DNA from: Liolophura sinensis
Lineage: Eukaryota > Mollusca > Polyplacophora > Chitonida > Chitonidae
DNA: 64,000 nt
NCBI RefSeq assembly: GCF_032854445.1
Contig: NC_088295.1
Coordinates: 84,364,644 to 84,428,643 of the forward strand
Direction: 5' to 3'
A model generated the notes under the pieces. It had not been told where the DNA came from. It made no database searches and saw only the letters and a list, made by a program, of their open reading frames with translations. Position numbers and translations under genes: made by a program. Within the stretch, counting starts at the first letter, position 1; each line of letters starts with the position of its first letter. Shown here one piece after another: positions 3,101 to 58,164 of this stretch.

Positions 3101-5736
3101 AAGTGTTTTTGTATCAGTGCGAGATTGGCCCTGTGTCAGTGTGACAGCATGAAGGCAAACTTCAAAGGTTGAGAGCAGCAGTCAAGAGACATCTCAATTC
3201 TGTTGGCAGCAGAATGGCTACTCTGGAATGTGTTATTCAGACCGCTGTATTTCACTTTGAGTTTAGCCTGCAAAGATCCACTTTAAAAAGCACGCATAGA
3301 TCTTAAAATGGTGCAGTTGTCAACACTTGTAAGTTTTTCTGATAAATTAATCACACTCCACAAAAGTCTCTTAAGTGGCTGTATTAGATGGAAGAATAAA
3401 TCAGAATCATGCAAAATGTGTCACTCAAAATAAGCAAAACTTCAGGTGAAATACTGTACTAAATCAAATACTTAAACTGGAGGACACAATGGATGCTATC
3501 CAGGTGGCAAACAAGAATACTGTAAAACCTGAAAGGTAGCGACCCTATAGTAATACTTGGATGATAATGTACACAGTTAATGACAAAAAATATTAGCAAT
3601 CAAATTTTTCTGCTTTGCTTGAGTATTGGCCTTTGGAAATACAGAAACTTGCAATAATACATCTGCATGTTCAAGTATTCTCTCGGTGGTATTGTGTATC
3701 ACTGGCATAAACATCGGGTATTCCACTAATAGTCATCTAGCTTTCACCTGTTAGTGTGAAGAGTAAATGTTTCTGTTGAAATGGTGCCCAGCCAACTGCA
3801 ACATTATATGTTAATGTTCTAAAATTATTCCAAAGATGCACCACAGGCAAACAGCAGAGAGCCTGATAGCTAACTACTGGTTTGTCTGTAGTGTGTTTAT
3901 TACATGTATGACCGTATCTATTCATGGCCTCAGTCGGTTAAAGCGCTAGCGCAGCGTGATGACCCAGGAGTCTCTTACCAATGCGGTCGCTGTGAGTTCA
4001 AGTCCAGCTCATGCTGGTTTCCTCTCCTGCCGTACGTGAGAAGGTCTGTCAGCAACCTGCGGATGGTCGTGGGTTTCCCCCAGGCTCTGCCCGGTTTCCA
4101 CCCACCATAATGCTGGCCGCCGTCGTATAAGTGAAATATTCTTGAGTACGGCATAAAACACCAATCAAAAAAAAAAAAAAATCTATTCATGGCTTTCTGT
4201 AATTACTTTGTGTTTCTATAATACAACTGAAGGGCTTTTGATTGATAATACTTGCAAGGAAAATGCATGTGTGGAAAATTAAAAAGGCTATACCTAAGAT
4301 TTTTGGGAAAAATTCAATCCAATTTTTGTTATTATTTATTTTAGAAATGCTCTAGTCATTACCTTTCACAACATATACATGTAAGCCTTGTCTGTGCATG
4401 GGATACTATTCAATTTCCCATAAAGTCCCTAAAACGGTTACATTTAAAATTTTTAAACACTGTAAATAGTACAGGTGTGGGCCTGATATATATGTGCAAT
4501 AATTTTAGCTAATGTTGGTAAATACTCAAAATTTTACTTGATTAGCAAATATGGAGTTTTTGCCAAAAATTTGTGGTATAGTCTCTTTAGGATTTATCAT
4601 TAAGTCTTCATGTAGATATACCAGGTGTCCCATGCCCACTGTGTGCATTGTGTGTATGAATGTTGAATGTAGGTGGTACTGATAACCACTTGGTGCTGGT
4701 GGACCTGCGCCCCAAGGGGACAGATGGAGCGCGAGTGGAACGGGTGCTGGAGTTGTGTGCCATCACCGTCAACAAGAACACCTGTGCAGGAGATAAGAGT
4801 GCTATGACCCCCGGGGGCCTCAGATTAGGTGGGTAGCTTTCACATTAACAACACAACTATCCCTAGGCAGCTACAATAAAGATGTACATGTGATTGTATA
4901 TGGAATGTCGTCAGAAGTCTACACAACTTGACAGTCTCAAAATGGCCTCTTGTGATGCGATTTTTAAATAAGCCATAATTATTTATCGGAAGCGGCCTCA
5001 AGCTTAAGTATTATATGAATACACATACATTTTTATCTGATAGGCTGAAAAAGAGTATCTACTTCCTTGTAACATTATAAGCACAGATGAGCAATAGGTA
5101 CTGTGAAAAAACACAGTGCAAGACAGCAGACCTGTATGCATTAATAATAAAATCTGTCATGTCTGTGCGGTTTTATTTTTGCCCCTTGTTGCTGTCAAAA
5201 ACATGTATCTTCAAGTTGTATTTAGTAAAATCTGCAATGTGTCTGTTATCAGGTGCCCCAGCTCTGACCTCTAGAGGATTTAATGAGGCTGACTTTGACA
5301 AGGTTGTTGAGTTCCTGGACAAGGGAGTACAGATTGGTCTTGAGGCACAGAAAAGTACCAGTATGTTCATATTACTGTGGTTTTTGAGTCCTTCTAGTAT
5401 AGCTACCAGTTACATGTAAATATTCTATTGTTGGCTATACAATGTGCAGCCGTCTTTTAACTAGTAGAACTTCCTGGAGATTCTTGATTCTAATGTGTTA
5501 ATTGGGGGGTTAAATGTGATTGAGCATGCATTGTAAAGACTGATGCTTATTATTTTTTGTTTTGTTTTGTTTTGTTTTCCTAGTTCAATACTTTGAAAAT
5601 ACTTTCAGAAACGCTGAAGGAATTCAAATCGTACCTGTTAGAGAATGACACCATCAAGCAGAAGATTGCTGGCTTATGTGAGGAGGTGGAGGGGTTTGCA
5701 CAGAAGTTCCCCATGCCTGGCCTGGACGACCGGTAG
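154..5736 (+). CDS. SHMT: Serine hydroxymethyltransferase, 3' seven exons (5' partial)
   Basis: PLP enzyme that interconverts serine + tetrahydrofolate and glycine + 5,10-methylene-THF. Exons read from the sequence: 154-276, 803-942, 1801-1966, 2815-2914, 4673-4828, 5253-5360, 5609-5736, all GT-AG with matching phases, giving 306 residues and a TAG stop. Exon 2 holds the THHKTLRG-type PLP-lysine region (here [11 protein letters not shown]). Later landmarks are [52 protein letters not shown] and the ending FPMPGLDDR. The family is about 480 residues, so roughly 175 N-terminal residues (with any mitochondrial targeting peptide) lie upstream of the window. Residues match both animal cytosolic (AGMIFYRKG) and mitochondrial ([17 protein letters not shown]) forms, so I do not assign SHMT1 or SHMT2. 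Four introns carry SINE copies. Confidence 0.97.
421..668 (-). mobile_element. tRNA-derived SINE, family 1, SHMT intron
   Basis: Full-length copy read on the minus strand: tRNA-like head at the 3' side of the window sequence, conserved core (CATAATGCTGGC / GGTTTCCTCCCACC type) and tail related to GAATATTTCACTTATACGAC next to TGATTGGTGTTTTATGCCG. It creates spurious ORFs on both strands. Confidence 0.85.
1169..1415 (+). mobile_element. tRNA-derived SINE, family 1, diverged
   Basis: Starts with GGCCTCC head, contains the core and ends with TTGAAATATCCTTGAGTAAG and ACACCAATCAAAACC before an A/T-rich tail. More diverged than the copies at 3926 and 37270. Confidence 0.75.
1990..2212 (+). mobile_element. 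tRNA-derived SINE, family 1, 5'-degenerate
   Basis: Core AGCAACCTGCGGATGGTTGT and GGTTTCCTCCCACC are well kept; the tRNA-like head is decayed. It begins shortly after the donor site of SHMT exon 3 (1966). Confidence 0.75.
3926..4180 (+). mobile_element. tRNA-derived SINE, family 1, near-intact
   Basis: Head GGCCTCAGTCGGTTAAAGCG, box-B-like GTTCAAGTCC, full core, tail GTGAAATATTCTTGAGTACG and CACCAATC followed by an A run. It looks like one of the younger copies in the window. Confidence 0.9.
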
Positions 5737-8763: not shown

Positions 8764-9028
8764 GGGGCCTCCGTGGCTCACTTGGTTAGTGCGCTAGCAT
8801 AGCCTAATGACCCAGGAGCCTCTCACCAATGCAGTCGCTGTGGGTTCAAGTCCAGCTCATGCTGGCTTCTTCACCAGCCGAACATGGGAAAGCCTGTCAG
8901 CAACCTGCGGATGGTTGTAGGTTTCCCCTGGGCTCTGTCTAGTTTCCTCCCACCATAATGCTGGCCGCCTTCGCATAGGTGAAATATTCTTGAGTACAGT
9001 GTAAAACACCAAACAAATAAATAAAGAA
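8764..9028 (+). mobile_element. tRNA-derived SINE, family 1, full length
   Basis: Head GGGGCCTCCGTGGCTCACTT, GTTCAAGTCC box, core, CATAATGCTGGCCGCC, GTGAAATATTCTTGAGTACA, ending ACACCAAACAAATAAATAAA. Confidence 0.9.
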
Positions 9029-9607
9029 AATAGTACAAAACTGTTACAATAAAAAGAAGAAAGAAAAACAAGAAAACTGACTGACCTACATGTACATGGT
9101 CAAGAACAAAACCCAGAACCCCAAAAAAATATTCTGCACCTGATTATCTGGCCATGCTTCCACAGGTTTTACCTGTAGGTCCTTAACAGTGCCACGACTG
9201 CAATTGGTTCATCAGCAATATAAAGCAATAGAACCGGTAAAAGATACAAGAAGAAAATGGTCCCATTTCAACGTCCTTCACACAGTCTTGCCAAAAATAC
9301 AATTTAATATTTGATCATGGGCTTAGACTTCAAACTACAGTTCTGGAACTATCAACCACCATTAAATGCTGTTCATCCTGGGATGGCAGTCGACAGTGAA
9401 AGCATTTCTGATTCTTGTTATGCCAGGTGACCTATTAAAAATAGGTACCAGTTAAATCCAAATGCTGTCATAAAAAACTTGTTTCACTATGTTACCCCCC
9501 ACTGTGTATTTTTGCTCTAACAATAAAGCTGCAGACACAATATAAACACAGAACACTCATGCTGAGATTGCCACTGAGAAGGGCAGAAAACTAAGCCTCT
9601 GTTATCA

Positions 9608-12600
9608 TCATTTGTTCTTTTTCTCCTTGCCATACACGCTATCTAGTGAGAGTCCAGAGAAGACAAGGACCGTGCCCAGCCACTGGCGACTGGACATGGG
9701 ATGCTGGAAGATGATCACTGAGCCAAGAATTGTGAAGAATTTCCGTGTTGTTGTGATGATGGAACAGGTTAGTGGTCCGAATGTTGTCACAGTGTAAAAG
9801 ATAAAAGTCTGCCAAGAGAAAACAGTAAGAAAAGAATTTGCGAGTTACAGTAAACATATATGTATGTATAAGTCAAAAACATAAAAATAACTGTGCCCCT
9901 AAAAAAAAATATCAAATTACAAGGATCTGCTAGAGCTTTGAGAGAGGAAAAACTTTTCAACTTCCTGTCACTTGTCAATCACTAGGGCACATGAGGTGGT
10001 GGTTCAAACCAGGTCTTGGAAAAGGAATTTGTATTTCCCAGCTCTCACCTTCTGGACAACATGCGGTCAGCGAGGCGCATGTTGCAGTTCAGGGTATAGC
10101 CTTCAACAAAGGCCACTTGTCCTTTACCAATACGGTAAACTGTATGTCACACATGGGAAAGTTTGTCAGTAACTTGCCAAAGGACAGTGGTTTACCACAA
10201 GCAATCAGGTTACCTCCACCTACATGTACAAAACTGACTGTCATTGTACAACTGAAAACTTCTTAAATATGGCGTTCTTAGACAACAATCAAATAATTAA
10301 ATGAATAGAGAGATACAGATGTGCAACCTCTTGACACTATTTTGGTACATAACGTGTCATATTTGTTTGGACACTTCTGTGTGAGAAGCACTTAAAAGAA
10401 GTTAATCTCACGTAAAACAAAGATGACAAAGCCCAAGCAGTAAGCCAATGGCTTTGGAATCAAAAACTTTGAAAAGGTGTTTCAGTTTCAGAAGCCAATT
10501 TAATGCAAACATTTGTCCAACAATTCAGGGGCGAGTTTCTCAATACAACATGTAGAAGCCCCCAGCACTGGCCTTTGTCTGCATTTGTCATAACTGTACA
10601 TGTACTGGTGTATAGGACTTACCTGGCCCAATGCACTTGCTAAACTAAATGATATCATGTTGAATAAAACGAATGGATATTTCTGAGCAAACAGTAAGAA
10701 AGCCATTCCTTCCCCTGTTACAACCAGTCCTAGGAGAAAACAAAGAGAGTATAAGGGGTCATTTTACTTCTCAATATGGTTACATCAGTGGTGTAGTATA
10801 TACATATTCAGGTGAATGGTGCAAAGTGATGATTTCATTGTACCAACAGTGGAACCCTGAAGTCAGCTGTTATATTGGCTGTGTGGTTATTCTGAACACA
10901 AACAAATTGTTATGGCCTTAAGCAACAGAACCAGCTTATTCCAACCTCAAAACTCTCACCATAATAGTAGGGAAAGTGTCTGTCTGTAATATGTGTACTT
11001 AAATCATTCTCATGTGTACTTCACCATTACTTTATAAATAATTAAATCACACCATAATAGCAGGGAAAGTGTCTGTCTGTAATGTGTACTTCAATCATTC
11101 TCATGTGTACTTCACCATTACTTTATAAATAATTAAATCATGCCATTATTCATGATGTTTTAACATCTTTCTGAATTCGATTATACTCTTGATGCAACCC
11201 TTTATGGTATAAACCAATTCATTTTTTTTTTCAATTAGTGTTAATTCTAAGTTGTATTTAAAAATATGTTTATGTGTTTGAATAAATAAGAAAGAACTGA
11301 AATATCTCATAAGAAGTTGCTCAGACATGTTACTCAGAGATACCCGCCAATCCGTTGCTGTGAGAGAAGCATTACAAATAACAGTGGTTATACCTTTATA
11401 GCAGTGTTTTGTTTTATCCTTATTTAACATACATGTACAATAGTTTTACTTTGGGGTCTGTAATCAGCTACAGGCATTAAAGATGCCCACCTTCACAAAA
11501 GTCACCAATCACTCTTACCTATTGCTAACCACAATAAGGACCATAAGTTAACATTGAACATCATGTGGTTGGCACCAGTTTGGTGATCTCCTCTCATGCG
11601 GTCTTGTGTAGCACCGGTAACACCATCCAGAGTCAGGGAAAGTAACTGAAATAAGATCAGAGAAACAAGATCAGACACCCAAGCACCTGCTCCATCATCC
11701 AGATTCAGGGAGAGTAACAAACAAAATCAGAGACAGAAGCACGTGGTTCACCATCCAGAGTCATGGAGAATAACTGAAACAAGATCAAAGATACAAGCAC
11801 CTGTTACACCATCCAGGGTCAACCTGATATGTTAACATTTATGAATTGGCATGAGAAATACAACTAACTATAGTCAGGTAAAAGAGATACTGATAACACT
11901 CAACCACACATTGCTGGGCATACATCACAAAGTTCAGAAAAAAAAGACAAAGACTTGTAATGAGTATTGTTTAAAATCTGTGAAACGCTATAAATGTCAG
12001 CAGTCAGTTATGGAGACTACAGTTTATACAGTACAGTTTATGAGCTTACCAATAGAAACTCTCCAATTCCTACAACATGCTCTGCTGCTTTAGCATCCTT
12101 TTTGTCCTTGTACATAAACAATGCCACCCCCATGACAATCATCAGGACACAGAAGTACTTTGCCACTGGGTATCTCTTCCTAGCTAGCAGTACCCCAAGT
12201 ATCATGACAGGGATTGGCTTCACAGACTTCCCCAACACCTGAAGAAATGACAATCAATAGCAACACTACATGTATTTACTGCAGTTATTTTTTGAATGCT
12301 GTTTTGGGCCTAACTCAAGAATATTTCACATGTATGGCATCGGGTAGCATTATGGAGCGAAGGAACCAAGCAGAGCCCAGGGGAAACCCACGACCATCTG
12401 CAGGTTACTGGCGGAACTTCCCACTTACGACCGGAATGGAAGCCAGCATGAGCTGGACTTCAACTCACAGCGGCCAGACTGGTGAGAGACTCCTGGGTCT
12501 TTTTCATGTTCACATACAAAGCATTATGATTTAACATGAATAAACATTTAAATCTTGCAAATGTTAGATAAGGCTTTCCCAAAAATTAAATTCAACTGAG

Positions 12601-20400: not shown

Positions 20401-23400
20401 CCCCCCCCACTCCAACCAAAAAAAAAATACATATATTACGTTTTTATTTCTGAAATTCAAAGTCACAGTGGCTGCACTGTGGCTTGTCACAAGAATTGTT
20501 CACTGGTTGTATTTATCAAATTATCTGGAGGTCAACTCCTTCCATAATTTAATAACACATACACTCACAACGTGGTTAAATTTGTATAGGGGTGAATGCA
20601 ACCAACTGGCCAAAAGCCGGTTCTGAATCCGGACAGATTTTCGAGCCCAGTGTGGACGTAGTAGATTTCCAGGATTACCTGTAAGGAGGAATTGAGTGAG
20701 GAAATAGGGCCTACTTAGGTCGCAGGTGTGTGTTCTAATCTTAACCTACATTGTTTTTTCGTAGACTAACTAACCTAAGGTTGTATTTAGCTCTGTACTG
20801 TCGGGGATTGTCGCGAATATTTAGATCTTTGTAATCATTAGTGGCTTTGTTAAACAAAGCTGGTCGTTCATAAACAAGGTTGATGAGTTTTTCATCGATC
20901 GTCTTCGGTCCGAGATGGAGAAGCCTGGCTGTACTTGCAAATGATTGGTTTAAAATGACACAAAATGATGCGGTGCCGTTCCGGAGCCGCGTGCCGTACC
21001 ATGGAAATGGTTATACCTAACAAGTACAGTTCTGTTTCATGATGTTGTGTCGTGCGTCGTGCAGGGTGCGGCGAGGCGTGCAGTGGAAATTGGCCTTCAC
21101 ACTCAGTATCAGTCATCTTGATACAGTGCAAATGGCCAGGTAGTCTGGAGGACCTGTCTTGAACTTCTTTCAACAACTAACCCTTTAACACCTCATGTTT
21201 TCGACATCTTCATGTTGCTGCCATGGAGTTATGCCTACAGATGACCTGTGTTGTCGTGGTATTGATGTATTTTCATAACCCTTAAATTACCTGTGTTGCC
21301 ATGGTATTGGCTGTTTTTAGGCCTATCACCCTTGGATTGCCTGTGTTGTTATGGTATTGGCATGTTTTTAGACCTATCACCCTAAGATTACTTGTATTGC
21401 CATGGTATTGGCATGTTTTTTATCACACTCAGATTACCTGTGTTTGTCATGGTATTGGAATGTTTTTAGTCCTATCACTCATAGATTACCTGTGTTGTCA
21501 CGGTATTGGCAAGCTTTTAGGCCTATCACCTTTAGATTACCTGTGTTGTCATGGTATTGACATGATTTTATCACCCTTGTATTACTTGTGTTGTCGTGGT
21601 ATTGAAATGACTTCATCACCCTCAGCTTGCCTGTGTTGTCATTGTATTCGTATATTTTTATCACCTTGTCATAATATCGGCATGTTTTATCACCCTCAGA
21701 TTGCCTGTGTTGTCATGGTATTGTCATGTTTTAGGCCTATAACTCACAGATTGCCTGTGGTGTCATTGTATTGGCATGTTTTTAGGCCTATCAGCCTCAG
21801 CTTACCTGTGTTGTCATGGTATTGACATGTTTTTATCACCCTCAGATTACCTGTGTTTTCATGGTATTGGTATGTTTTTAGGCCCATAAGCCTCATATTA
21901 CCTGTGTTGTCATGGTATTGACATGCTTTTATCACCCTCAGATTACCTACGTTGCCGTGGTATTGGCATGTTTTTAGGCCTATTAGCCGTATATTACCTG
22001 TGTGGTTATGGTATTTGCACGTTTTTATCACCCTAAGATTACCTGTGTTGTCATGGTATTGGCATGTTTTTAGGCCTTTCATACTCAGATTATCTGTGTT
22101 GTCATAGTATTGGCATGCTTTTATCACCCTCAGATTACCTACGTTGTCATGGTAACGCCATGTGTTTAGGCCAATAACCCACAGATTACCTGTGTTGTCA
22201 TGGTATTGGCGTATTTTTAGGCCAATCACCTTTAGATTATCTGAGTTGTCATGGCATTGCCATGTTTTTATCAACCTCATATTACCGGTGTTGTCGTGGT
22301 ATTGACATGATTTCATCACCCTCAAATTCCCTGTGTTGTCATGGTATTGGTATATTTTTATCACCTTGTCATGGTATCGGCATGTTTTATCACCCTCAGA
22401 TTGTCTGTGTCGTCGTGGTATCTGCATGTTTTAGGCCTATCACCTCAGATTACCTGTGTTGTCAAGGTATTGGCATGGTTTTTATCACCCTCAGATTACC
22501 TGTGTTGTCATGGTATTGCCATGTTTTTAGTCTTATCACTCACAGGTTACCTGTGTTGTCATGGTATTGGCATGTTTTTAGGCCTTTTTATCCTCAGATT
22601 ATCTGTGTTGTCATGGTATTGACATGCTTTTATCACCTTCAGATTACCTGGGTTGTCATGGTATTGGCATGTTTTAGGCCTATCACCCTCAGATTACCTA
22701 CGTTGTCATGGTATTGCCATGTGTTAAGACCTATAACGCACAGATTACCTGTGTTGTCATGGCATTAGCATGTTTTAGGCCTATCACCTTTAGATTATCT
22801 GTGTTATCATGGCATTGACATGTTTTTATCACCCTCAGATTGCCTGTGTTGTCGTGGTATTGGTATATTTTTATCACCTTGTCATAATATCTTCATGTTT
22901 TATCACCCTCAGATTGTCTGTGTTGTCATGGTACTGGCATGTTTTGGGCCTATCACCCTCAGATTACCTGTGTTGTCATGGTATTGGCATGTTTTAGGCC
23001 TTTCATCCTCAGATTATCTGTGTTATCATGGTATTGGCATGCTTTTATCACCTTCAAATTGTCTGTGTTGTCATGGTATTGGCATGTTTTAGGCGTATCA
23101 CACACAAATTACCTGTGTTGTCATGGCATTGGCAAGGTATTAGGCTTATCACCCTTAGATTACCTGTGTTGTCATGGTATTGACATGTTTTTATCACCCT
23201 CAGATTACCTGTGTTGTTATGGTATTGACATGATTTCATGGTATTGTCATGGTATTGGCATGTTTTGTCAGCCTCAGATTACCTATGTTGTCATGGTATT
23301 GCCATCTTTTAGGCATATGCCCCCTTAGATTACCTGTGTTGTCATGGTATTGGTATATTTTTATCACCCTCAGACTACCTGGAGTGTCATGGAATTGGTG

Positions 23401-26400
23401 TATTTTTATCACCCTCAGAATACCTGTAGTGTCATGGTATTGGTATATTTTTATCACCCTCAGACTACCTGTAGTGTCATGGTATTGGTATATTTTTATC
23501 ACCCTCAGACTACCTGGAGTGTCATGGTATTGGTATATTTTTATTACCCTCAGACTACCTGGAGTGTCATGGAATTGGTGTATTTTTATCACCCTTAGAT
23601 TACCTGTGTTGTCATGGTATTGGTATATTTTTATCACCCTCAGACTACCTGGAGTGTCATGGTATTGGTATATTTTTATCACCCTCAGACTACCTGGAGT
23701 GTCATGGTATTGGTATATTTTTATTACCCTCAGACTACCTGGAGTGTCATGGAATTGGTGTATTTTTATCACCCTCAGAATACCTGTAGTGTCATGGTAT
23801 TGGTGTATTTTTATCACCCTCAGACTACCTGTAGTGTCATGGTATTGGTATATTTTTATCACCCTCAGACTACCTGGAGTGTCATGGTATTGGTATATTT
23901 TTATTACCCTCAGACTACCTGTAGTGCCATGGTATTGGTATATTTTTATTACCCTCAGACTACCTGGAGTGTCATGGTATTGGTATATTTTTATCACCCT
24001 CAGACTACGTGGAGTGTCATGGTATTGGTATATTTTTATTACCCTCAGACTACCTGGAGTGTCATGGTATTGGTATATTTTTATTACCCTCAGACTACCT
24101 GGAGTGTCATGGAATTGGTATATTTTTATCACCCTCAGACTACCTGGAGTGTCATGGTATTGGTATATTTTTATCACCCTCAGAATACCTGGAGTGTCAT
24201 GGTATTGGTATATTTTTATCACCCTCAGAATACCTGGAGTGTCATGGTATTGGTATATTTTTATTACCCTCAGACTACCTGGAGTGTCATGGAATTGGTG
24301 TATTTTTATCACCCTCAGACTACCTGTAGTGCCATGGTATTGGTATATTTTTATTACCCTCAGACTACCTGTAGTGTCATGGTATTGGTATATTTTTATC
24401 ACCCTCAGACTACCTGGAGTGTCATGGTATTGGTATATTTTTATTACCCTCAGACTACCTGGAGTGTCATGGAATTGGTATATTTTTATTACCCTCCGAC
24501 TACCTGGAGTGTCATGGTATTGGTATATTTTTATTACCCTCAGACTACCTGGAGTGTCATGGAATTGGTATATTTTTATCACCCTCAGAATACCTGTAGT
24601 GTCATGGTATTGGTATATTTTTATCACCCTCAGCTTTCCTGATTTATGATGGTATCGGCATGTTTTTATCACCCTCAGATTACTTGGGTTGTCATGGAAT
24701 CGACATATTAGTGCATAAGGTCTTTCGGTACACACCGTCACATGAGTGTTGGGAGGTATGTGAGAGGAAGGGGTTGCAGACAGTATCTGTAGTAGGAGCG
24801 TAAGTATGTAGACAGTACATGTATGCAAACAGTAAGAACAAGAGTTTACTTTTTGTCCGATTTTAACGACCAAAAACATTTTCCTAACAAAAACAAATAA
24901 ATAAATAACGGTACGGATTGACGACGTTTTATAAAAGTGGACACTAAGCATTTCCTTTGCCTCCCCCGTGCTCTTTAGTACATGAGAAAGCTACATCTAG
25001 TACCACCGAAATGTGAGCGAAACAGCAATACATGCAATGTGATGAAAGTCGAGAGTTGTGATCGATCTAATCCTTAAATCTAAATTATTTATTGTTTACA
25101 GGAGGTGGTGTGGATGTGGTCAGAACGGGGAGATGATCCCGGCGAGCCCTGACTGTAAATCTCGTTGCTATTTCATTCCACAACACAAGTGTCAGTGTTA
25201 TGACGGCACTGATGACGAGTATGACGAAGTGGCCTTAAGTCGGGCTATGGACTTCATGGAAGCTTTACCCAAACCAAATAAACTTCCAGGTACATCAACA
25301 CATACGAGCAAGACTTTATGGAGAATTCAGCATGATCAGGCTACGCATGCGTATACTGTGATCTAGTTCACAGTTCGAAATAAAAACAAGAATTAATGGA
25401 GAATTAAGCATGAGCAGTTATCACGAAGCATCTTGTCGATGATCATCATTTCTTTTCTTTTAATTTTAGTCCACAACACTCAAACTTTTACCAATACTGA
25501 CATATGAGTAAGAATTATTATTTTCTTAAAACAGGTAAAAAATGACATAAAGTTTGTTAAGGGAACGATTTGTATGTTGGCTGAGAAGTTTATTTGACTT
25601 CTGTTTATTCTTGCATATGTGCTTAAGTCTGAATTTAAAGCCATTTCAAACAAGATCGTTGTGAATTATATATATAGTATTCTCGTCTCGATTTGTGGGG
25701 GAAAGGGCAGAGTAGTACTCATGTATTACTCATAAATTACAAGAAAGCGGTGGCCAAACCGGCTTAAACCCGAACCCGGACCGCCATTGTGTGAGACAAT
25801 TTACCCCATGTAATCTGTACCTGTATGTTTTCTTACAGGTTACAACTGCCGAGACGTTCTGTTGCTTAACTATTTCTACCAGTTCCCCAAACCTGTCAAG
25901 GTTCGACAGAAAGAATGCCACGATCTGTGTGCTAAAGTTCCAAGACACTACAGAGCATTGCTCATGCCGTATGTACATGGTCATTGCCAACTGGCTTTAT
26001 ACCTTCACATCTCGATGTTTTTCCAGAAGACCTGATTACACAGTTATCGCTTTTACACAAACATAACCGTTCTACATGATAAATCTTGTTGTCTGTCACA
26101 TTATGCACGTTTACAGAAATTCAGCATTGTTTGAGAGGGAAAAAAATAAAACATAAACGACCTGTTAAGGTTTTTTCCAATACTGAAATGGTTAAATAAC
26201 ACTTCACCTATTGACGTAACATGATTTGCTGCCAACATTCCTATACCTGTATTGAAATTGATTTCGTTCGTGACGTTCAGTCCTGCATGATTTCAGGTAT
26301 AAGTGCGGCTGCGCAAAGAACTTTGATCCAGACAGTGACCCCCTTAGGCCAGTCACCAAGGAGTGTGTTGACGAGATGATTTGCATCGAGTTGAAAACGT

Positions 26401-29400: not shown

Positions 29401-32400
29401 AGAACGACACAGAAACACGCATTTGTATGGTGTACGAAAAACACGAAGGCCACTTTTTAGATATAATTCTTTGTCATATTCGGCTAGCCACCTTTAGATA
29501 TCTGTTTCTGTACGCTGTTTTCAAGGATTCCTCTTCCATTGTTCCAGCTGAGACCAAACTGTCTGATTCCAACACAGGCGTGTCAGGTAAATATTTAAGT
29601 GGCATGGAATGTTAAACTCAGTAAATATTTCCTAAATGTGTCCAGAAATACCCCGTTCACACGGGCAAAGTTAACCTGGTTTAACTTGCGAAAGTGGCTT
29701 TGAGCCAGTTTGACGTCGCCCGCGGGAACGCAAAGTGGGGGCATTTAATCCGGTTTATTTGCCCCAGCTAGGGACGCGGTTTTAAGCCAGTTTCAGGGCT
29801 TGAGCGGGTTTATCTGTGCCGAGATAACGGTAATTGGATTAATTGCCAAGGGTACGTGGACGTCAGGATGACGACGTAAGTACTAAACGGGCTTAAATGT
29901 GACCGTCTCAACGGGCAAAAGTCTGGACTGGCTTAAAACCGGCTTGGTCATATGGGTCGTGTGAATGCACTCATTTTCACAAATGGCTTCGATTTAAACG
30001 AGTTCAGATTTGAATTTTGGTCGAGTGAACGGGGTATAGTATCTGAAGTACAAAGGTGTGTAAGTACTTTAGGTACTAGGATGCAGGCACATGGCAGAAC
30101 ACATGTAAACAAAACTGGTTATAAAAATTCTTGAACATGGCCTTAAACCATAAACAAGTGAATAAATTAATGAATACAAGTATACAACAGCATACAAATG
30201 AGATAAATATAAATATGCTGTACTTTTAATTTAATGCTGCTTTGCTTACGCTCATCGAGCCGTTGTTGTTTTAGTTGATACAATTCCAAAGTCGCCACGT
30301 CATACCAAAACTAACATTTCAGAGCACGAGGGTTGTTATGGGGTTGACCTTTTGGTACACAAGGTCGATAACTACGGGCCGTCTGCAGATTGTTGGGAAC
30401 GCTGTAAGCTGTTGGGCGCCAGAAGTGTAGCAGTGGCAGGAGGGTATAGTATTGTCTTAATGTCATATCTCATCAATATTAGATGTGTTACATGTTTTGG
30501 AGTCATTGAACCACATCATCTCATACAATGGAAATGTGACAAAACACTGGAAAACAACTCGAAAATTCACAATATGATTTGTTTGCTTTATTAATTGTAT
30601 TTTTCTCATTAGAAATATTTATTAGTTAGTAGGTCCATAACAGCAGATGAAACAATACATGCTATCTGTGATATCAATGTAGTGTGTATGCGTTTACCTA
30701 AAACTTAATTTAGTCAATTTATAATCTCTGCCTAGAGCACTTCTAACTGATTATATGCCTTTGTCCCCTCTCATGTAGACGGTGGTGCGGTTGTCCAAAA
30801 AACGGACCGCTTGGTGCTGGGGACCCGGACTGTTTTATCTACTGCGCATTCATCTCACATCCCAAATGTGAGTGTTTTCATGGCGACGAGAATTCCTACC
30901 AGACGATGGTGGAGGAGTTAGTGGACACATTTATTTCTGAGCTACCATCGCCGCACGATTTTGCAGGTACGCAGCGTCTTCCTGTTCCCCAGGACCACAA
31001 GAACGCACATCTCAACCTCAAGCCGGTGTTTTCAAACTTATATATTTACGGGACATATTCTGTAATCAGATTAAGGAGAGAAAGTGAAAAGTTCGTAATG
31101 GATAATGTGATGCCTTAATAACAAGAGAATTTTTTCGAATGTTTCGAAATTATATTTCATCGACTTTATGCGACGTTTATTTGTTACTGTCTACATTTGC
31201 TTTCCGACTATATGATTTTCTATACCTTTCATGATTGAAAACAATTGCAAAGTACAGTTCTGTGACATCTAGTTTCATAAATTTGACTGCCTTCAAAACA
31301 TTTGTTCGAGTTTAACAATGATTTCTAGTTACACCTTGCTTATATGCCACTATATTATTTCCATGGCAGTTCATGTCGGCTTTACGTGATTTTCATTAAT
31401 TTTTTTGTTTGCATCTTTGCTGTAAATAACATAAATCTCTGACATTTTATGACATTTGTCCTAGGATACAACTGTTCCGTACTCAAAACTCTACACCACA
31501 AGAATATCTACCCAAAGGAAGCCGAGGAAAGGGCCCAAGAATGCTTCAAAGAGACGTGCAAACTAAAAAATCGACAATTGGGAGCCTATCTCATGGGGTA
31601 AAAATACTCATTGCAAACTATAATTCTGATTTACACACGTGTGCACAATGGCATCGTATAGTAGGGCATCTAGTTTCTCGGAAGTCGCGGATTTACAAAT
31701 ATTCACGTACCCATGTCATTAAGTTCCCTTAGCGACAACGACGAACTGAACTTTGGTTTAGCGATGATAGCTAATGCTCGTCGACTGCTGATTGTTGATT
31801 GCTGACTTGTTTTCCCGAACATTCAGGTACAAGTGTGGCTGTAAGTTGTCGGACGATCCTAACGATGACACCTTGTCACCGGTGACACAAGAATGCGTGT
31901 CCAGGATGATATGTATAGAGGTGGCCACTTCCGCGTGTCTCTGTGGTAACGAAAAGGTCGACCCACTGTCTTATCAGCCAATGACCAGATCCGGCCCCCT
32001 GCTGAAAACAGGTCAGTAAACGCCATCTGCTTGCCATGCCCTAGGATCACGAAGCATTCTTAGACTTGAGTCAAATTTTCAAATCACCTTAAAATTGTTA
32101 TTTTTTTACGTAACATCGTTACAGGTGCACATGGATTTAAGCTTTGATGATTTCATCGTCTGTGGATTTTGATGTCGTAATAGCAAAGTGTTGTAACAAT
32201 GAATAGAGATTTTACCTTTTTATGCATGTAGATCGTTTTGAGTGTCTCAGTATGGAGCAGCAGAATACGAGAGCGAGAAAGCTGCGGCGCACCGAGTTCC
32301 AGGACATATGGAAATCCTCTATCACACCAGAAGAATGTATCAAAACTTGTTCGGAAGCCGACTATGACTATGCTGGGATTTCACTTGGGTATATATATTC

Positions 32401-35400
32401 TTTTATTCCTCGTTGCTTCGTCACCATATCTCTGTTGCCTACAACCATATCTCTGTTGGTGACGAAGATTTTATATCCTGCTCCGTTGTAGCGACTCTGT
32501 TATAATTTCAGGCCTACAACAGAAGGGTTTAAGCCCTCTAAGAGGATATTGATGTCTTTTAGTCCTCTTTTCTCATTGAAACTGAGTTGCTTGATTATGA
32601 TAGGGCGTCGTTTCCAGGGGCATCTGTGGCTGTCAGCATTATCCAGGTCTGCGAAAGTTTTCCCAAGATGACTGCTCCATGCCATGTACTGTAGAGGGTG
32701 TAACTGATGTCTGCGGTGGACCTTACACTGCGTCTGTGTTCCCTACAGATAGCAGAACGGGTAAGTGTGTACAGTACAGCGTATAACTGATGTCTGCGAT
32801 GGACCTTACACTGCGTCTGTGTTCCCTACAGGTAGCAGAACGGGTAAGTGTGTACAGTAGAGGGAGTAACTAATGTATGCGGTGGACCTTATACGGTGTC
32901 TGTGTTCCCTACAGACAGCAGAACGGGTAAGTGTGTACAGTACAAGGTGTAACTGATGTCTTGGGTGGACCTTACACTGCGCCTGTGTTCCCTACAGACA
33001 GCAGAACGGGAAAGTGTGTACAGTAGAGGAAGTAACTAATGTATGCGGTGGACCTTACACGCCGTCTGTGTTCCTTACAGATAGCAGAACGGGTAAGTGT
33101 GTACAGTAGAGGGTGTAACTGATGTCTGCGGTGGACCTTATACGGCGTCTGTGTTCCTACAGACAGCAGAACGGGTAAGTGTGTACAGCACAGGGTGTAA
33201 CTGATGTCTGTGGTGGACCTTACACTGCGTCTGTGTTCCCTACAGGTAGCAGAACGGGTAAGTGTGTACAGTGCATGGACTAACTAATGTATGCGGTGGA
33301 CCTTACACTGCGCCAGTATGTCCCTATAGATAGCAGAACGGATAAGTGTGTATAGAACAGGGTATGACTGATGTCTGCGGTGGACAAAGGAGGGTAATGT
33401 TATGTACTGAACAGTTTTCATGTCAATCTATCAATATCCTGATACTGTGGGTCTTAATATATGTGTGGATTATTGCTGAATTTAGAACTAACGGTGTTAT
33501 TTCATATTGTCTGTAGGGCAGAGTGTGGAACAGCTAGTGGAGGACCTGGAAAAAGATGCCGAAGGTATTTAAGCTTTTCTATTATCTGTTATTTTCATTT
33601 TAAACTGTTCTGATTTTCTGAAAAAATAAAAAATAAAACACATTTTTTGGAAGCTTCTGTTCCGATAGCCTATATTTACCAAGACATTGGTATGGAGCTA
33701 GTTGTTTATTTACTCAAGAATAACCGGTCTCCGCTAGCACAGTTAGTAGAGCGTCCCCTTCGGGATCGGTAGATCCAAGGTCAATTCTGGGTCCAATCAC
33801 ACCTAGGACCTTAAAAGAGGAAGTTGTATTGTAGCTTCCTAAACTTGGCGTTCAGCATGAAGGCGATAGTGCAACGACTAGTTGACCCGTATCAGTATAA
33901 TGGCTCGGGCTGGGCGTCTTACTTGCCTGCGGTAAGGCGTCTCAGTGAAGCAGCACTAGATAAAAGAGCAGTGCAACAAGGAGGCACATTACATGCATCC
34001 TAAAGATTCCTTCGTCGTCATATGACTGAAAAATTGTTAAGTACGACATTAAACCCAAAGCACCCAAGAATACTTCACGTATTCGACGGCGGTCAGCAAT
34101 ATGGTGAGAAGAAACCGGGGGAAATGGAGCGAGCTGTGGCAGAGCGGTTAATGTGCTTGCGTTCCACTCGCTTTTTATTATTACACTGCTGTTACTGTTG
34201 TTGGTATCTTGGTAACAAAGTATGGTCGATAGCTGTCTTCCAAGTAGTCTTACAAGTTCTCTAGAGATCACGTACCTTCCAAACGAAAAAGTTCGCCACT
34301 ACAGCTTGCCATTGGTTTACTCCGGGTTACTCTACATTTAATATACAATCGCCACCATCGTATCATTGAAAGGTTTTTAAATATAGAGTTAGACAGTCAC
34401 AAAAAGTATTAATTAACGTTAAAATGTTAGACTTGTTTCCGAAGAGAACTTCCATACTAAATGAAAGAGAACAATTTCAGTGTTGCCCTCATGATTGCAA
34501 ACCTTGACATTTCAGCTTCCCTTGAGATAATTCCCCACGTCACTGGTGGCTCCGTAATATCAGGTATGCACTAACCTAGCTCTGAGATCGGTTGGCCACG
34601 TCCCGATTGAACGTTCACATTAACCGCTCTAACTACTCACATTCACTAAACACTTACCTGGAATAATGATGTACGCCATAAAAATAGGTATCCGGTGATC
34701 TCAAAGTAGTTCTTAATTCATATCACCTAAATAAAGACCACACCATCGCAAGTAACACAAATGTAACCGACGCATCCAATTGGACAACATCAGAACTTCG
34801 CAAACCGCCATTCACGTCACTCCGTTGTTGTGGTGGACCCGGCAGCCTTTTTCACAATAGTTGTCTATAGTTTCTTTCATTATTATCACTCTGAATAAAG
34901 TTAAGACACCCAAACAATTTGTTAACTGACCTTTAGATGGTGTACATCTCATTGGTTTCAATCCAATCATGCGACGAGTTTATCTTTTTCTGGATGATGC
35001 AGAATGCGGCTGACATTGGGCTTTTTCGAAGTTTGTCTTGTTGCCGATGCGCCAGGTTAATTTGTGATAAATTATGATGTTATGGTCTTTATTATTCACG
35101 ATTAGCTAGGTGATGCGAGGTCAGAAATACTGCGAGATTACAGAAGACATGTCTTTGTAGCGTACATCTTTGACATATTGAAGACAGCACACTTCGAAAG
35201 ACGGATCTGTATTTCTGAAAGCTAGGCTGGGGAGAATGGAACAGATCTCAAATCTAGCATTAACCCGGAACATTGGGACAAAAAATGAATAATAAATTGA
35301 CTTAAGCAAACTCTTAGCCGACTATGTGTGGCTCTTTCGTGTGGTGTGAAGAAGTCACAAAAAGTTTTTTTATAGCATATTGTATGTGCAGTGCCATGAT

Positions 35401-38400
35401 ATTCAGTAATAATTGACGATGTGAACTGTAATGCAGGGGGTCTTGTCCTTTTGTATTCCTTTAATATTATTATTTATTAATTGTTATAACAACACAGCTT
35501 TTTTAGCAAATCTCGTTATGCCGTAGTACATTTTAGTCGCTATCGATTGTTTTCGTACTGTTTCATCGGCAAGCCAATTTCACAGACAAGCCTGTGTTTT
35601 TGATCTGTTTCACCAACAAACCAATGTTTTCATACTGTTACACTTTACAAAACAAGGTTTTTGTACAGTTTGATCGACAAACGACTTTTAGTACTTTTTC
35701 AAAGACAAAGCAGTGTTTTCGTACAATTTCACAGACAAAATGCCGTATAGCTAAAAGATTTTTAAGTGTGGCGTTAGACAATCAGAAAGAATATTAACCA
35801 GTTGGTAGAAAGTTATATTTGTTTCTACAGAGAGCTTCTATACAAAATGATTTAAGCCAATCTAGGGTCGGCGGTGTGTGATTCCTTCGTGTGGCATAAA
35901 GAAGTGATTTTGATATATAGATATATTTGATCTGAGCATTGCAAGAGCATTGTTTTCATTAATCAAGTATTGCATGAACCATATTGTTCGAGGCTTGATC
36001 CCTTTGCATTGCCTTCATGCTATTATCTGGTAATAAATTGTATTAACGCCACAGCTTTGTTAGAAATTCTACACCTCTGGTGTCTATTAGAATGTTATTA
36101 GTATCGCTGCTACTATGTAAGTATTTACGTGGACAGTTAAATAAAGCCCCCAAGTTAGGTAAATTGACAAGAGGGTTAATTCCACTAGATATGTCTGATA
36201 ATTTTTGCCAACTATCACACTGTAATTGCTTCTGTGTTTTGGGGTACATTTTAGCAACAAACAGATATGTTCGCATTGTTTCTCCGACAAACTAATGCTT
36301 TCATACTGTTTCGCAGATAAACCAATGTTTTTGTACTGTTCCACAGACAAATTAATATTTTCGTATTGTTTCACCGACAAACTAATGTTTTCGTACTGCA
36401 TGTTTCTCTCACAAACCAATGTTTTCGTACTGTTCACAGACAAAGCAATGTTGTTGTACCGCTTCACAGATAAACCGATTTTGTTTTCGTTCTGTTTGAC
36501 CGACAAACCAATGCTTTCGCACTGTTTGACAGACTAACCAACGTTTTCGAACAGTTTCACAGGCAAACTAAGGTTTTCGTACAGTTTCACACACAAACTA
36601 ACGTTTTCATACAGGTTGACAAACAAACTACCGTAACGTTTTCGTATAGTTTCACAGACAAAGTAACGTTTTTGTACCGTTCCATAGAAGAAACTAACAT
36701 TTTCGTACGGTTTCACAGACAAACTAACATTTAGTACATTTTCACAGACGAACCAGTGTTTTCGTACAGTGTCACAGACTAACCAATGTTTTCCTACGAT
36801 TTCAGAAGAGGTGGAAGGAGACGTATCCCTGCCTGAAGGTGAATACCCTTTTTAACTGATAAGCTTTGATCGGATGTCAATTGAAATGTCGTTTGAGTCG
36901 TAGTTGTATAGATATATGCGATTCACAATTCTTCTTTAGCTGTTTTCCAACACACTGTTGAACTGCTTTGAAACATGTTTTATGATACCAGTGGCACGTG
37001 ACTGATAACTAGCATTAGGATATTTACGCGTGTTTTAGCTACGCGTGGTTAGCCTGTGTATTTGTAGATGATAAGTGCTTAGTTGTTGGGAGGGAGAGGG
37101 GCGCTGTCTTGGACTTTAAGAAACAATAAAGCCACCCGTCCTGATAATGATTTTTATTAAATAAAAATTGTTTCTCATCATGCACATAATGGTTCTATGG
37201 CGTAAATAATGAGAACGTCCAAAACAGAAACATTTTGTTTTCAGTGATATCTAGAAATGTTGCAGTAACGATTTATTTATTTTACTTATTTGATTGGTGT
37301 TTTACGCCGTACTCAAGAATATTTCGGCAGCATTATGGTGGGAGGAAACCGGGCAGAGCCGGGGGGAAACCCACGACCATCCGCAGGTTGCTGGAGGACC
37401 TTCCCACGTACGGCCGGAGAGGAAGCCAGCATGAGCTCGACTTGAACTCACAGCGACCGCATTGGTGAGAGACTGCTGGGTCATCACGCTGCGCTAGCGC
37501 GCTAACCAACTGAGCCGCGGAGGCCCTTTGCAGGAACGAAATCGAAGTCCGATATACAGCCCAGATTAAAACAGCCTATATTTACATATACATATTTACA
37601 TATTTTGCAGATGAAGACCATCAAGGAAATGAATCTAGAGTAGTATGTGAGTATACAGATGGATGACTGATAAGCTGTATAGCTGAACTCTTGAAGGGCT
37701 TAATTTTAGTCTGACTCGGAGTAGAGCTTAAAATGTTTCAGTATTTTTTTAAGAATGTATATTTTTAAAAGATGCAACATTCACAGTTTCCTTTCAGCTA
37801 TGATCTGCGAAGTTACACATTTATATAAGTCAGATTTATTAAAAATTCTTATGTTTACATTTATTTTTACCCAGCAGATGAATATGACCAAGGCAACGAG
37901 TCCAGTGCAGTGGGTGAGTGCAGACAGATCATCCTAATAGCGTTTACTGTTGAAGAGCTGATATGTTTGCTAGTTCGTAATCATGTGACACTTTTACAGC
38001 TTCCCTATATTCTGGAGAGTTTGAGATAATAATACGAATGATAAATCATTCGAACTTTGTATATACATGTAAGTGGGAAGGTCTCCCAGGATCCTGGTGA
38101 TGGTCGTGGATTTTCCCCCGGCTCTGCCCGGTTTCCTCCAATCATAATGCTGACCACGGTCGTTTAAATGAAATCTTATTGAGTAATCAAATAAATAATA
38201 AATATATACATGTGCATTTAACAGAAAAGAAATGATGCCCTTGCGTGTGGTATATTCAAGAGAATTACTTACTAGCTAAAGCAAGTGACGTGTACATTTA
38301 TATTTACTTAGCGTCAACTTGTACATGGTGAAATAAATATTCTCTTTGTTTTTCTAGGATGCATTATCAAAACACTATAAAAGCTCTTGTTGGAGTCATA

Positions 38401-44564: not shown

Positions 44565-46672
44565 TGTACGAAGGCTGTTATGGTATTGATCTTCTTATCT
44601 CCAAAGTGCCAATATACACGCCAAGCCAGTCGTGTTGGGAGCAGTGTCGGAAGAAAGGCACACAGCAAGTGCTTGTATACGGAGTGTAAGGTCATCATTC
44701 ATAGGTCAAACAACGTGTAAAAAATCTATTTCAATTTAGTTCAATTTCAATCCCAACAGATTTATTTTGTAAACTACAGCTAAGCTTGGAGAATACATAG
44801 AAATGCTTGAATCGTTTTATAAACATTTTACAAGTATTTCCTATTTATATTTCTTTGATAGAAAATTTTTAAGTTAATAAGAGTAATTTATAGACAAACA
44901 CATTAACTGTTAATTAAATCACAAGTCTATCATCGGATAATTCCTCCAGTCTTTGCAAACAGGCGATGGTGTGGCTGCCACTCTAATGGTATGATGGGAC
45001 CAGGTTCTGTCGATTGTGAACTTGGATGTACCTTTTTACCTAACACAGACTGTGTCTGTTTCCACGGGCATAGCCATGACTATGACAGATCTGTTCAACT
45101 CTTGGTTCATAAACATATCGCCAAGCTGCCTCCAACAAAAGCCTACAGAGGTAAATAACAAAACATCGTTTTATTTTCTATATTCCAAGTGCTTAACACC
45201 CTAAATTTCATGTTAGGGTTAAATAAAATGGGAGTTAAAATATAAAACCATTTCTGTTTGTCGCAATGAACCTTAGACTTTGATCAATATTTATTCTAAC
45301 TTTATGGTATGAACATTGTGTGCTAAGGTACAGGTCTTTTGGTCTTGTAGGATACAACTGTATAAATATGCCAGCGCATGAACAGACTGATATCGACCCC
45401 GTCCCAGCCCAAGAAAGAGCCCACAAATGTGTGACAGGCAAATGTCGACATGAAAACAGACAGTATGGAGCCTATATGATGGGGTGAAAACCTTTAGTCT
45501 TCTTCAAATGTTGATTCTTGTCTTTACCTCATTTTGCTTAAATTCTATGTTCATAAAGCATGTATTGACCCAGACGTAATGAACACTAAACTATGGTCTG
45601 ATGAAATCTACATTTTTTACCTTAGCACATATTACATGTCCTAATCTATATAATCTGATACGGGCTTTTCTTTATGACATTCCCCTACTGTTGATTGTGT
45701 TCACGCATTTTCTGTGGCCTGTCACAGTAATACTTGTGGTGATGCAGGTATAAATGTGGCTGTAAAAAGTCTCTTGATCCTTTGGACGATGGATTTCTGC
45801 CAGTCACTAAAGATTGTATGGACAGAATGGTATGTATGGAGCTACCAGAGTCAGTTTGCCTGTGTGGAAACACGAAGTTGGATTCTGTATCATCCTCAGC
45901 ATCAGGAGAGTACCGACCATTGTTAGTTTCAGGTTAGCGGTTACATGGTCTTTTGCTTTAAACTAATATACCTTTTGATCTTCACACTATAATATATGAT
46001 ATTCAGAGCTTAAGCCCTCTATGATCTTGTCTTCATTGTGCTCTTTGTTTTGTTTTAAATGCATCTCTTATGAGAAGCCGGTCGTTACTTATGAAAACTA
46101 CCTTAATGACTGATCTATTTTTTCACTCAGTGTTACCATTTACAATATCAACGGAAAAACGCAGTCACATGCTGTATGACACTAGTAAATTTTCTGTCCC
46201 AAGATCACGGAATACCGCCTCTTTGTAGACAGATTCCAGTGTTACCTAATGAAGGAGGGGGAAGAAGAAGCAGAAGTGAAAAGAATTGTGGAGTATGAGA
46301 TTATCCGCAAAAACAGAGCGAAACCATCGGAGTGTCTGGACATTTGCATTAAAGAGGAGTACAGATTTGCCGGAGTTAGCAGAGGGTAATAAAAGTTAAA
46401 CAATTGACAAGTCAAACTTCCTACCAATAATATGAACAATGAGACAGATTTAACCATAAACATTCATTGCACAATGTGTCTTAATGGCGCAGCAGTGTTA
46501 ATGTCGATTAAATTTTTGTGTTAATTATGTTTCAGAGGAGTGTGTGCCTGTCAGAACCACATAGGCCATAAGAAACTGTCGGATGACGACTGTTTCTCCC
46601 CTTGCCTATCTGGGCGCATTGGCTGCGGTGGGCCTTATGCCGCATCAGTCTACTCATTTAAAGGTCACATAG
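44565..46672 (+). other. W2 cassette C: six cysteine-rich exons
   Basis: Exon lengths 121, 188, 133, 185, 157, 137 nt, matching W1 cassettes A and B exactly in exons 1, 2, 4 and 5. Landmarks: YEGCYGIDLLISKV, CWEQCRKKG, RWCGCHSNGM, CVCFHGH; YNCINMPAHE, KCVTGKC, YKCGCKKSLD, VCLCGN; WSC module DRFQCY, SECLDICIKEEYRFAGVSRG, VCACQNH, DDCFSPC, GCGGPYAASVYS. Confidence 0.9.
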
Positions 46673-49600: not shown

Positions 49601-52600
49601 GGCGGCGCTTGAGTAGGGTGTAAAACATTAATTAATAAATGATACGTTCCTAGCTGCTATTTTAGGTAATATTCTGTTTCGAATGCCACCTGTTTACAAG
49701 GCCTGTGATTATTTGATACAGCGCTAATTTCCACTTTTGGTTTTTCTTATGTTACATATATTGACTATTGTATACATGACTGATATCGTTGGGTTTTTAT
49801 CTGCTTTCCATTACTTGTCTTGTCTTACATATATCAGTGAGTTTTTATCTGCTGCACATTCCTATCCTATATTACAGATATCGACGAGTGCTTATATGTT
49901 GCCCATTACTTATCTTGTGTTACAAATATTGATGAGCGTTGGTATATTTTATGTTACAGGTATTGGAGAATGTTTTCTGCTTTTCGTTGTTTATCTTATG
50001 TTATAGGTATTGAAGAATGTTTGTCCTCTGCCCATTGCTTATGTTATATCACAGATATCGATGAGTGTTTATCTGCTTTTCATTGTTTATTTTGTGTTAC
50101 ACATATCGATGAGTGTTACTAGTATCCGCTGTGTATTGCTTATTTTGTGTTGCATTTATATATTTATATTTTGTCCATTGCTTATCCTATGTTACAGACA
50201 CCGACGAGTGTTTATCTGTTTTTCATTGCTTATATTGTGTTACAGATACCGACGGGTGTTAATCTGCTTTCCATTGCTTATCTTGTGTTACAGATATCAA
50301 CGACTGTTTATATTCTGCCCATTGCTTATTTTTTGTTACAGATATCGATGAGTGTTTATCTGCTTTTCATTTCTAACCTTGTGTTGCAAATATCGATGAG
50401 TGTTATCTGCTGTTCATTTCTTATCTTGTGTTACAAATCAATGAAAGTTTATCTACCTTTCATTGCTTATCTTGTGTTGCCCATATCAGTGAATGTTATC
50501 TGCTGTTCATTGAATATGTTGTGTTACAGATATCGATGAGTGTTATCTGCCTTTCTTTGGAAATCTTGTGTTATAGATTTCGATGAGTGTTTGTATATCT
50601 TGTGTTACAGATACCGATGAGTGTGTATATATCTTGTGTTATAGATATTGATGAGTGTTTACTGCACACGGATGACTGTGACCATGTCTCGTCGGAGTGT
50701 GTTAATACAGCGGGAAGTTTCCATTGTGTCTGTAAGACAGGCTACCAGAGGCTTGACCGTACAAGATGTGTCGGTGAGTTGTATGTTCCTAAACAGTATA
50801 CATATACATACCAGCTAGGCAACCATTCTTCATTTTATTGATTGTTGAGAGCTGTAAAAGAATGCAATTTTACCTGTAAGCACGAAAATTGCATTAATCA
50901 AGGTAGAACAGTATAGGTCAATCTTGTGTGGATTTAGCTTTAGATTTGGTTTGCTGTCGTATCAGTTTTTGAGTAGAGAAACGATTGTAGATTTGGTACT
51001 TGTTCTTGTGTTTAGTCTCTATTACGCATTTACTGTATTCTAAACTTTTAGATATCGATGAATGTCAGATTCACCGGGATATGTGTGTACGATGTACCAA
51101 TACGATGGGAAGTTATATGTGCGACTGTCATCCAGGATATCAGTTGTCCACACAGGGCTGCATTGGTAAGATGTTAGAAGAATGATTGTTCGCCGTCGAA
51201 ACTATTTGTTTTTGTATTTACAATTTTAATTTTACTCCAAATCCACCTTTAAAGGTGTTAAATACATCATGGATGACTAACTTTCAATTACTTTTCAACA
51301 GACATCGACGAATGTCACCAAAATGACCACGCCTGTTCTGTTAACAGTGATTGTCAAAACAACGAAGGCAGCTACATCTGTAACTGTAAACCAGGCTACA
51401 CCAATGCGGAGGGCAGTGAAACCAAATGTGTTGGTCTGTATTTTAGTTTCGCTTTCACTTCCTGTGCATTTCTATAGACTTCATGTTGACATCGATTTCA
51501 TTGAAAACAATGATATTCCCGTTATGATGAATCTGCTGTAGGGTAATTAAGTGTTTCTCTGAAAGAAAACTTGTCATTTGGGCGAGGAACCAACATTAAT
51601 GCAGATACCCACATAAGTGCTAGTGACATGCACAATGTTAGGTTTTGTGTTCTATACGTTGTAGGGTGAACATGTTGTGAAATCCAGCATCCAGGATAGT
51701 GAAAATGAATACTTTATATACTGGTATTATACGTCAATTGAGATTGCATATAAGTCCCCTGGTACTTAAAGCCAGGTAAAAATAAAGATAATGATCAAAA
51801 AAGATATCATCAACCCTGTGCTCAGAAGAAGCCAGCTTCATGATCTGATTTGATCCAGGCCGGTTCCAGTTTTTTTTTACTTTAACCAAACTTATATTGT
51901 GTTATGAATTTTAAACTACTCACTTAACCATGCAGTTAAAGCTTTATTCAAGTGTAGATTTTCCATTTTTGTATGAACTCCGGTCGTGATATTTGCTGTT
52001 TCAGATGTTGACGAGTGCTTGCACTCGTCGATGAACGGCTGTCATGACACTCACAGCAGCTGTGAGAACACAGATGGCTCTTACAACTGCCCATGTGACC
52101 ATGGCTTCATGGGGGATGGGAGAAGCAAATGCACAGGTCAGCCTTGAAGACCTTGTTCAGTTGGACCAATACGACAACGTGCTCCTAGACTAATATTATG
52201 ATGGCTTTGGCCTTTTTAAATGTCTTGTATGTGGTGTATCTCCAATTGACTGCTTGTGTTAAAATGATTAAATCGAATATCCCCTGTGTTTATTTATTTA
52301 AATGCAAAGAAAACACTACAGTGAAGTGTATATCAGATGAAACACCATTAAACTCTGTCTTTTGTGGTCAGTGTTTAATGGTCTTTTATGCGAGATGTAC
52401 TTCGCGTTAGTGTTTTTTTTGTGTGTTTTTTTTTTTGCATTTAAATGAGCACCCTCTGACAAAATCATCTAATGAGAAATTAGAAAAAATCTTAATGTAC
52501 AGTTATCCTATAATTCCTACAATTGCTTATAATTGCTATTTAGTATCAGGCTGAATTAAAATTCTATTGACTAGATATTGACGAGTGCCACGATGGGCAT

Positions 52601-58010: not shown

Positions 58011-58164
58011 TAAGTTAATTAATCTATTAATTTTAGCAGAAAGTTTGTTGTCTGAGTTATGCTAGAATGTATGCTGTAATTACAGCAGATTATTTTGTTA
58101 AATATAACATAGCGTCTACAACCACTCAGCGACCACAAGGTCATCAATACCAGCATTTGCCGGT

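Follow-up and report, generated by a model that had tools for sequence, protein, structure and literature searches.

Which splice site is used when dozens of copies of it stand in a row ahead of an exon, and how does such a row come about? The question is raised by a stretch of 64,000 nucleotides (nt) of the chiton Liolophura sinensis (C1:84364644-84428643, hereafter the window), in which a minisatellite, array 1, runs up to the acceptor of a coding exon, W1 (W1 to W4 are names coined in this analysis). A published chiton assembly bore the species name Liolophura japonica, later corrected by its authors to L. sinensis (PMC12441733). We worked with a single assembly of one chiton (609,464,459 bases searched in 632 contigs, with 96,433,062 bases in C1), and the evidence reported here is sequence evidence. 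We consider it very probable that array 1 is a mirage-type minisatellite, i.e., a tandem repeat whose unit spans a splice boundary, that it belongs to a kind of array found at other acceptors and donors of this genome as well, and that the outermost site is the one spliced.

Array 1 and the W1 exon

Wraparound alignment of 21209-24678 resolved array 1 into 76 units, and Tandem Repeats Finder (TRF) reported 21239-24697 with a period of 45, 75.5 copies, and a score of 1061. The array consists of two layers. The 46 units of the older layer measure 32-52 nt and have a mean pairwise identity of 0.829; the 30 units of the newer layer are each exactly 45 nt long, with an identity of 0.941 among 29 of them (last unit excluded). 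An AG is kept in 62 of the 76 units (33/46 older, 29/30 newer; the true acceptor is counted among the 62); a preliminary description of the window had placed about 70 acceptor copies ahead of the true one. That description had also taken the unit to be an intron end joined to about 28 nt of exon start, and had proposed aligning all units and comparing them with shuffled sequence. The alignment bears it out: the first 28 nt of the W1 exon are identical to the unit consensus at 23 positions, a value reached by none of 20,000 dinucleotide-preserving shuffles (best 21), so that the similarity is significant and the unit spans the intron-exon boundary. The last unit, which adjoins the true acceptor, stands outside the homogenization of the array, with an identity of 0.737 to the newer core vs 0.941 within that core. 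When the true W1 boundary was compared with the rest of the window (plus strand, ungapped), a single place reached at least 26/44 identities (49794, 27/44). Four newer units used as a query against the 609-Mb genome gave 23 matches, all of them within array 1.

W1 is supported as an exon by its relatives. A four-exon cassette, W1-W4, is read three times in the window, upstream of a run of EGF_CA exons, and the W1 protein of cassette 1 is 51% identical to that of cassette 2 and 59% identical to that of cassette 3, the three exons being of equal length; this upholds the earlier exon call at 24679-24799. Judged from order, strand, and phase, the three cassettes and the EGF exons apparently form one gene. 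The cassette has what we take to be a WSC-like look; a Pfam search of the three joined cassette peptides (approximate joins) returned no family at E up to 1, WSC included, and thus gave no support to this impression. The earlier proposal that the array grew from the acceptor boundary is well supported: the unit joins an intron end to an exon start, there is independent support for W1 as a coding exon, and the four-unit query matched array 1 alone. Only the exon-proximal copy is continuous with a coding exon, and other boundaries carry arrays of the same kind with different units.

A 584-codon open frame lies on the minus strand at 23236-24990, antisense to array 1, and most likely results simply from the period of 45 nt.

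Other arrays in the window

The preliminary description had dealt with array 1 in isolation. Its reading of the array stands, but other arrays in the window do likewise, and array 1 is one of a genome class. Array 2 copies a donor boundary (the final 76 nt of a W4 exon followed by GTAAGTG) and array 4 the acceptor boundary of an EGF_CA exon; both passed the exon-copy test (at least 23/30 identities). TRF reported array 4 as 49945-50592 and 50556-50660. Array 3 was rejected as a full mirage, with no copy at 23/30 or above (best 16); its likeness to the boundary lies on the intron side, at up to 12/15 among the best four copies. Coordinates are collected in Table 1.

Table 1. Arrays and exons of the window (window coordinates).
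Feature	Position	Strand	Description
Array 1	21209..24678	+	76 units: ~28 nt exon-start copy + ~17 nt intron end ...TTTTTATCACCCTCAG
Array 1, parts	older 21209-23321; newer 45-nt 23322-24678	+	by wraparound alignment
Exon-proximal divergent unit	24634..24678	+	adjoins true acceptor
W1 exon, cassette 1	24679..24799	+	121 nt; acceptor CCCTCAG, donor GTAAGT at 24800
W1 homologue, cassette 2	30323..30443	+	121 nt; preceding array absent from TRF list
W4 exon, cassette 2	32618..32760	+	last 76 nt + GTAAGTG = array 2 unit
Array 2	32685..33385	+	83 nt, 8.4 units; 5'-splice-site mirage (exon end + donor), extends into intron
Array 3	36270..36804	+	30-nt units with TTTCACAG; adjoins likely acceptor (AG ends 36805)
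W1 homologue, cassette 3	44565..44685	+	121 nt; preceding splice-boundary array absent from TRF list
Array 4	~49850..50660 (start by eye)	+	48-nt units, TGTGTTACAG then ATATCGATGAGTG; 3'-splice-site mirage
EGF_CA exon	50645..50773	+	PF07645, E 8.6e-14; start repeated by array 4 units

Self-comparison of the window also revealed a repeat dispersed over both strands, whose copies have mutually similar open frames (e.g., 180-614, 3892-4107, and 8803-9143; further copies at 12208-12531, 37190-37575, and 58037-58378).

Boundary arrays in the genome

Three tandem copies of the donor word CAGGTRAGT at a period of 24-54 gave 996 match rows in the genome, whereas five control words of identical composition gave 249, 55, 49, 131, and 19; rows overlap within arrays and are not array counts. 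Among the matches listed we counted at least 16 distinct arrays, all of which were examined with their 5' flank, and in 6 of the 16 an exon end with homology lies at the 5' edge. These exons encode a helicase-like protein (PDB 6g7e, E 1.8e-18), which we take to be MOT1/BTAF1, a [Fe]-hydrogenase-like protein (PF02906, 1.4e-12), OGDH (7wgr, 2.8e-20), ABCC (8hvh, 1e-8), RPC1 (7a6h, 5.9e-8), and an alpha-L-fucosidase (PDB 7pls, E 2.4e-11). Five of the six arrays copy exon bases by the 23/30 test. The fucosidase array (L026) was set aside as a full mirage, since no copy passes the identity test, and is counted as abutting only. Two further donor arrays (L025 and L029) have open frames at the edge, for which a Pfam search gave no match. 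Past the MOT1/BTAF1-like donor array (L055:1-3001, minus) lies a second array of 33-nt units, about 2 kb long. One sense frame of it stays open over several hundred codons, presumably an effect of the period being a multiple of 3.

For acceptors, three tandem copies of TTTTYYNCAG gave 352 match rows vs 68 for the reversed word (again rows, not arrays). Our sample comprised the first 20 of at least 35 distinct arrays counted by eye among the matches listed. One of them runs into an exon that encodes part of an excitatory amino acid transporter (7xr4, E 3.6e-16) and copies about 11 bases of this exon; another proved to be a donor array of a peptidyl-tRNA hydrolase 2 gene (PF01981, 2.8e-12) read on the antisense strand. 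An open frame lies at the array edge in L034. In L046 an exon that we presume to be trypsin-like lies about 90 nt past the array, away from its edge. The exon-copy test for L051 was run with the boundary placed 1-4 nt off.

The EGF_CA exon acceptor pattern matched the genome 622 times vs 14 times for the reversed pattern, and its two-copy tandem form 74 times vs once. The tandem matches cluster in five places, i.e., the window, C1:94.349 Mb, C1:94.365 Mb, C8:54.16 Mb, and C13:27.39 Mb, and in each of the first four the array runs into an EGF exon. The EGF exon at C1:94.349 Mb is flanked on both sides, by an acceptor array and a donor array. The fifth place (C13:27392323-27393222) was rejected by eye: its 34-nt unit, with a chance CAGATGTTGATGATTG, is without a pyrimidine tract and was therefore judged not to be splice-related. 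The EGF gene region at C1:94.346-94.370 Mb (L002 and L003) contains several arrays with donor or acceptor motifs, at periods of 28, 33, 42, 43, 43, and 95.

TRF found 41 arrays in the 18 sequences to which it was applied, among them one additional donor array in L006, so that minisatellites are common in the pieces examined; boundary copying is far from the sole source of arrays in this genome. Eight minisatellites lie in 15 kb of EGF-rich sequence at C1:77.13-77.14 Mb (L016 and L017), one of them spanning both pieces, and none was matched to an EGF exon boundary.

Choice of splice site

For the donor arrays of OGDH, ABCC, and the [Fe]-hydrogenase-like gene, we fused the exon, cut at the donor nearest to it, with the exon that follows the array and compared the joined peptides with solved homologues. 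In none of the three alignments does a gap fall at the join (that of the hydrogenase has a single gap elsewhere), which argues by homology that the first donor is the correct one and that the array is intronic. For RPC1 and MOT1/BTAF1, the 3 kb examined in each case did not reveal the following exon.

The copies within the arrays were scored against a motif built from 70 acceptors and 50 donors, decoys being those copies that keep GT or AG together with resemblance to the boundary. In the parts examined of seven donor arrays, 31 of 34 decoys equal or exceed the true site in score, and the true donors of ABCC and RPC1 are weaker than the median decoy. The corresponding numbers for acceptors are 36/59 in array 1, 24/45 in the C8 array, and 3/5 in the transporter array. 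Decoys are often as strong as the true site, and thus the core motif is no reliable mark of it; since they are not generally weaker in this motif, something else must guide the choice, namely position and context. YTNAY occurs at -40 and -36 relative to the true acceptor of array 1; among 61 decoys, 10 show it between -45 and -15. The observation was made post hoc and is a lead only. The CTGAT and TTTAT in the exon-proximal unit resemble what we take to be branch-site motifs.

Mirage arrays may arise through tandem duplication of a splice boundary and grow through slippage or unequal exchange. Splicing would then pick the outermost, exon-proximal site, i.e., the last AG at an acceptor and the first GT at a donor, by position and context (exon definition, branch site, or exon body), and all other copies would be removed with the intron. 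The arrays would be tolerated because the outermost site is used and the rest leave with the intron. For array 1, we infer the use of the last AG, with the exon starting at 24679.

Alternative explanations

Several observations weigh against this interpretation. In array 4 the score of the true site is equaled or exceeded by only 4 of 11 decoys, and the last unit of array 1 stands out less from the older units (0.772 vs 0.829 among them) than from the newer core. No recognized exon lies at the edge of 10 of the 16 donor arrays (8 of these judged by eye without a homology search) or, by eye only, of 18 of the 20 acceptor arrays; the exon link therefore has far firmer support at donors than at acceptors. 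In 14 EGF-gene pieces chosen regardless of arrays (L004-L017), boundary arrays were found at 0 of 70 acceptors (13 of which had less than 1000 nt upstream) and at 1 of 51 donors, with matches to neighboring exons excluded. A weak strand test on the 41 TRF arrays showed perfect or near-perfect donors in 6 sense and 2 antisense arrays, and in 3 sense and 1 antisense of 24 when three pieces chosen for their arrays were left out. Matches in L008 and L012 had been candidates in these EGF pieces; they were left out as exon duplications because their distances equal those to the neighboring EGF exons.

An array kept by selection, whose decoys act as a silencer, enhancer, or sink and tune W1 inclusion, would fit the retention of AG in nearly all newer units and the strength of many decoy motifs. 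However, 13 of the 46 older units have lost the AG, and arrays occur at unrelated genes with unrelated units, for which a mutational process is a better explanation than gene-specific selection. We regard a regulatory function of this kind as unlikely.

Less likely still is a coding minisatellite, in which alternative acceptors within array 1 would give proteins with varying numbers of 15-residue repeats. The preliminary description had stated that the 45-bp period keeps the exon frame, that some units are open while others carry TAG, and that one extra unit with an acceptor at about 24633 is open. The last point proved correct, as the path that starts after the AG at 24633 stays open through the last unit and into the W1 exon, and in-frame use of this unit, starting at 24634, is possible. 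The first holds for the newer units, all of 45 nt, but not for the older ones, whose lengths are multiples of 3 in 25 of 46. As for the second, TAG is indeed present in GTAG units, but the array as a whole is not open in the exon frame: an open path leads into the W1 exon from 2 of 62 acceptors only, 24634 and the true site at 24679. Such arrays are also absent from the TRF list ahead of the two W1 paralogues. Periods divisible by 3 occur in 5 (45, 48, 48, 42, and 33) of 16 accepted boundary arrays (window arrays 1, 2, and 4; L001; two in L002; L003; L006; L011; L021; L027; L028; L031; L032; L038; L051), a share that equals the chance expectation; array 1 was entered at the period of 45 of its newer part. 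There is no sign of selection on frame, and frame-keeping looks incidental.

An ordinary intronic satellite or mobile element that resembles the exon start by chance is very improbable, common as minisatellites are in the TRF results, given the shuffle test, the four-unit query with matches at the array 1 locus only, and the like relation seen at several other boundaries.

Beyond the mirage-type origin of array 1, we tentatively raise a broader possibility, for which the odds at present seem rather against: that chiton splice boundaries seed minisatellites by repeated duplication of the junction in very many genes, housekeeping genes included, and that a general outermost-site rule passes over dozens of decoys, of which many equal the true site in strength. 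If true, the chiton genome would amount to a large-scale experiment of nature on how splice sites are chosen.

Comparison with known systems

Mirage minisatellites were reportedly first described by Canestro and others in 2002. In amphioxus they are described in Adh3, the globins BflGb6 and BflGb9, TnC, and PGBD5 (PMC3087553, PMC3902484). As in the chiton, they are tandem copies across intron-exon boundaries at 5' or 3' sites, AG or GT is often kept, and the cluster boundaries escape homogenization (PMC3087553, PMC3902484). They differ in size, with 6 and 3 units in two BflGb6 haplotypes against 76 units in array 1, and in setting: the chiton is a mollusc, with three boundary arrays in apparently one gene and a measured genome-wide excess. 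The amphioxus papers suggest that regular splicing is undisturbed by mirages (PMC3087553, PMC3902484).

We found no report of mirages from a phylum other than that of amphioxus in the literature on minisatellites and splice sites, introns, or boundaries, which is weak evidence of absence since most subscription papers lay outside the search. Among mollusc and earthworm papers on intron minisatellites (PMC6905558, PMC12783039, PMC3862624), the accessible parts report a variable 27-bp array in an abalone intron and exon duplications in an earthworm gene that are absent from its transcript; no copied splice boundary is mentioned in them. Array 1 is a real, well-supported example of a known but little-studied kind, in a phylum that is new as far as the literature found goes. 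Their excess in the genome of a protostome shows that mirages are not peculiar to cephalochordates. Each array is a ready test of splice-site choice, with near-identical sites in a row and one expected to be used. Boundary arrays are also candidate raw material for new introns or exons, and a possible cause of gene-model errors.

Two other systems invite comparison. The intron gain in potato RdRp (PMC4974935) likewise involved a duplication across an acceptor that carried the splice signals along; there, one duplication led to a new intron, whereas in the chiton the boundary was copied many times, with no sign of a new intron. In human segmental duplications, internal tandem repeats (PMC2812944) are likewise minisatellites (mean unit 30 bp) at exon-intron boundaries that alter introns. 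The human repeats gave rise to novel introns with transcript evidence, whereas in the chiton an existing boundary has been copied into its own intron.

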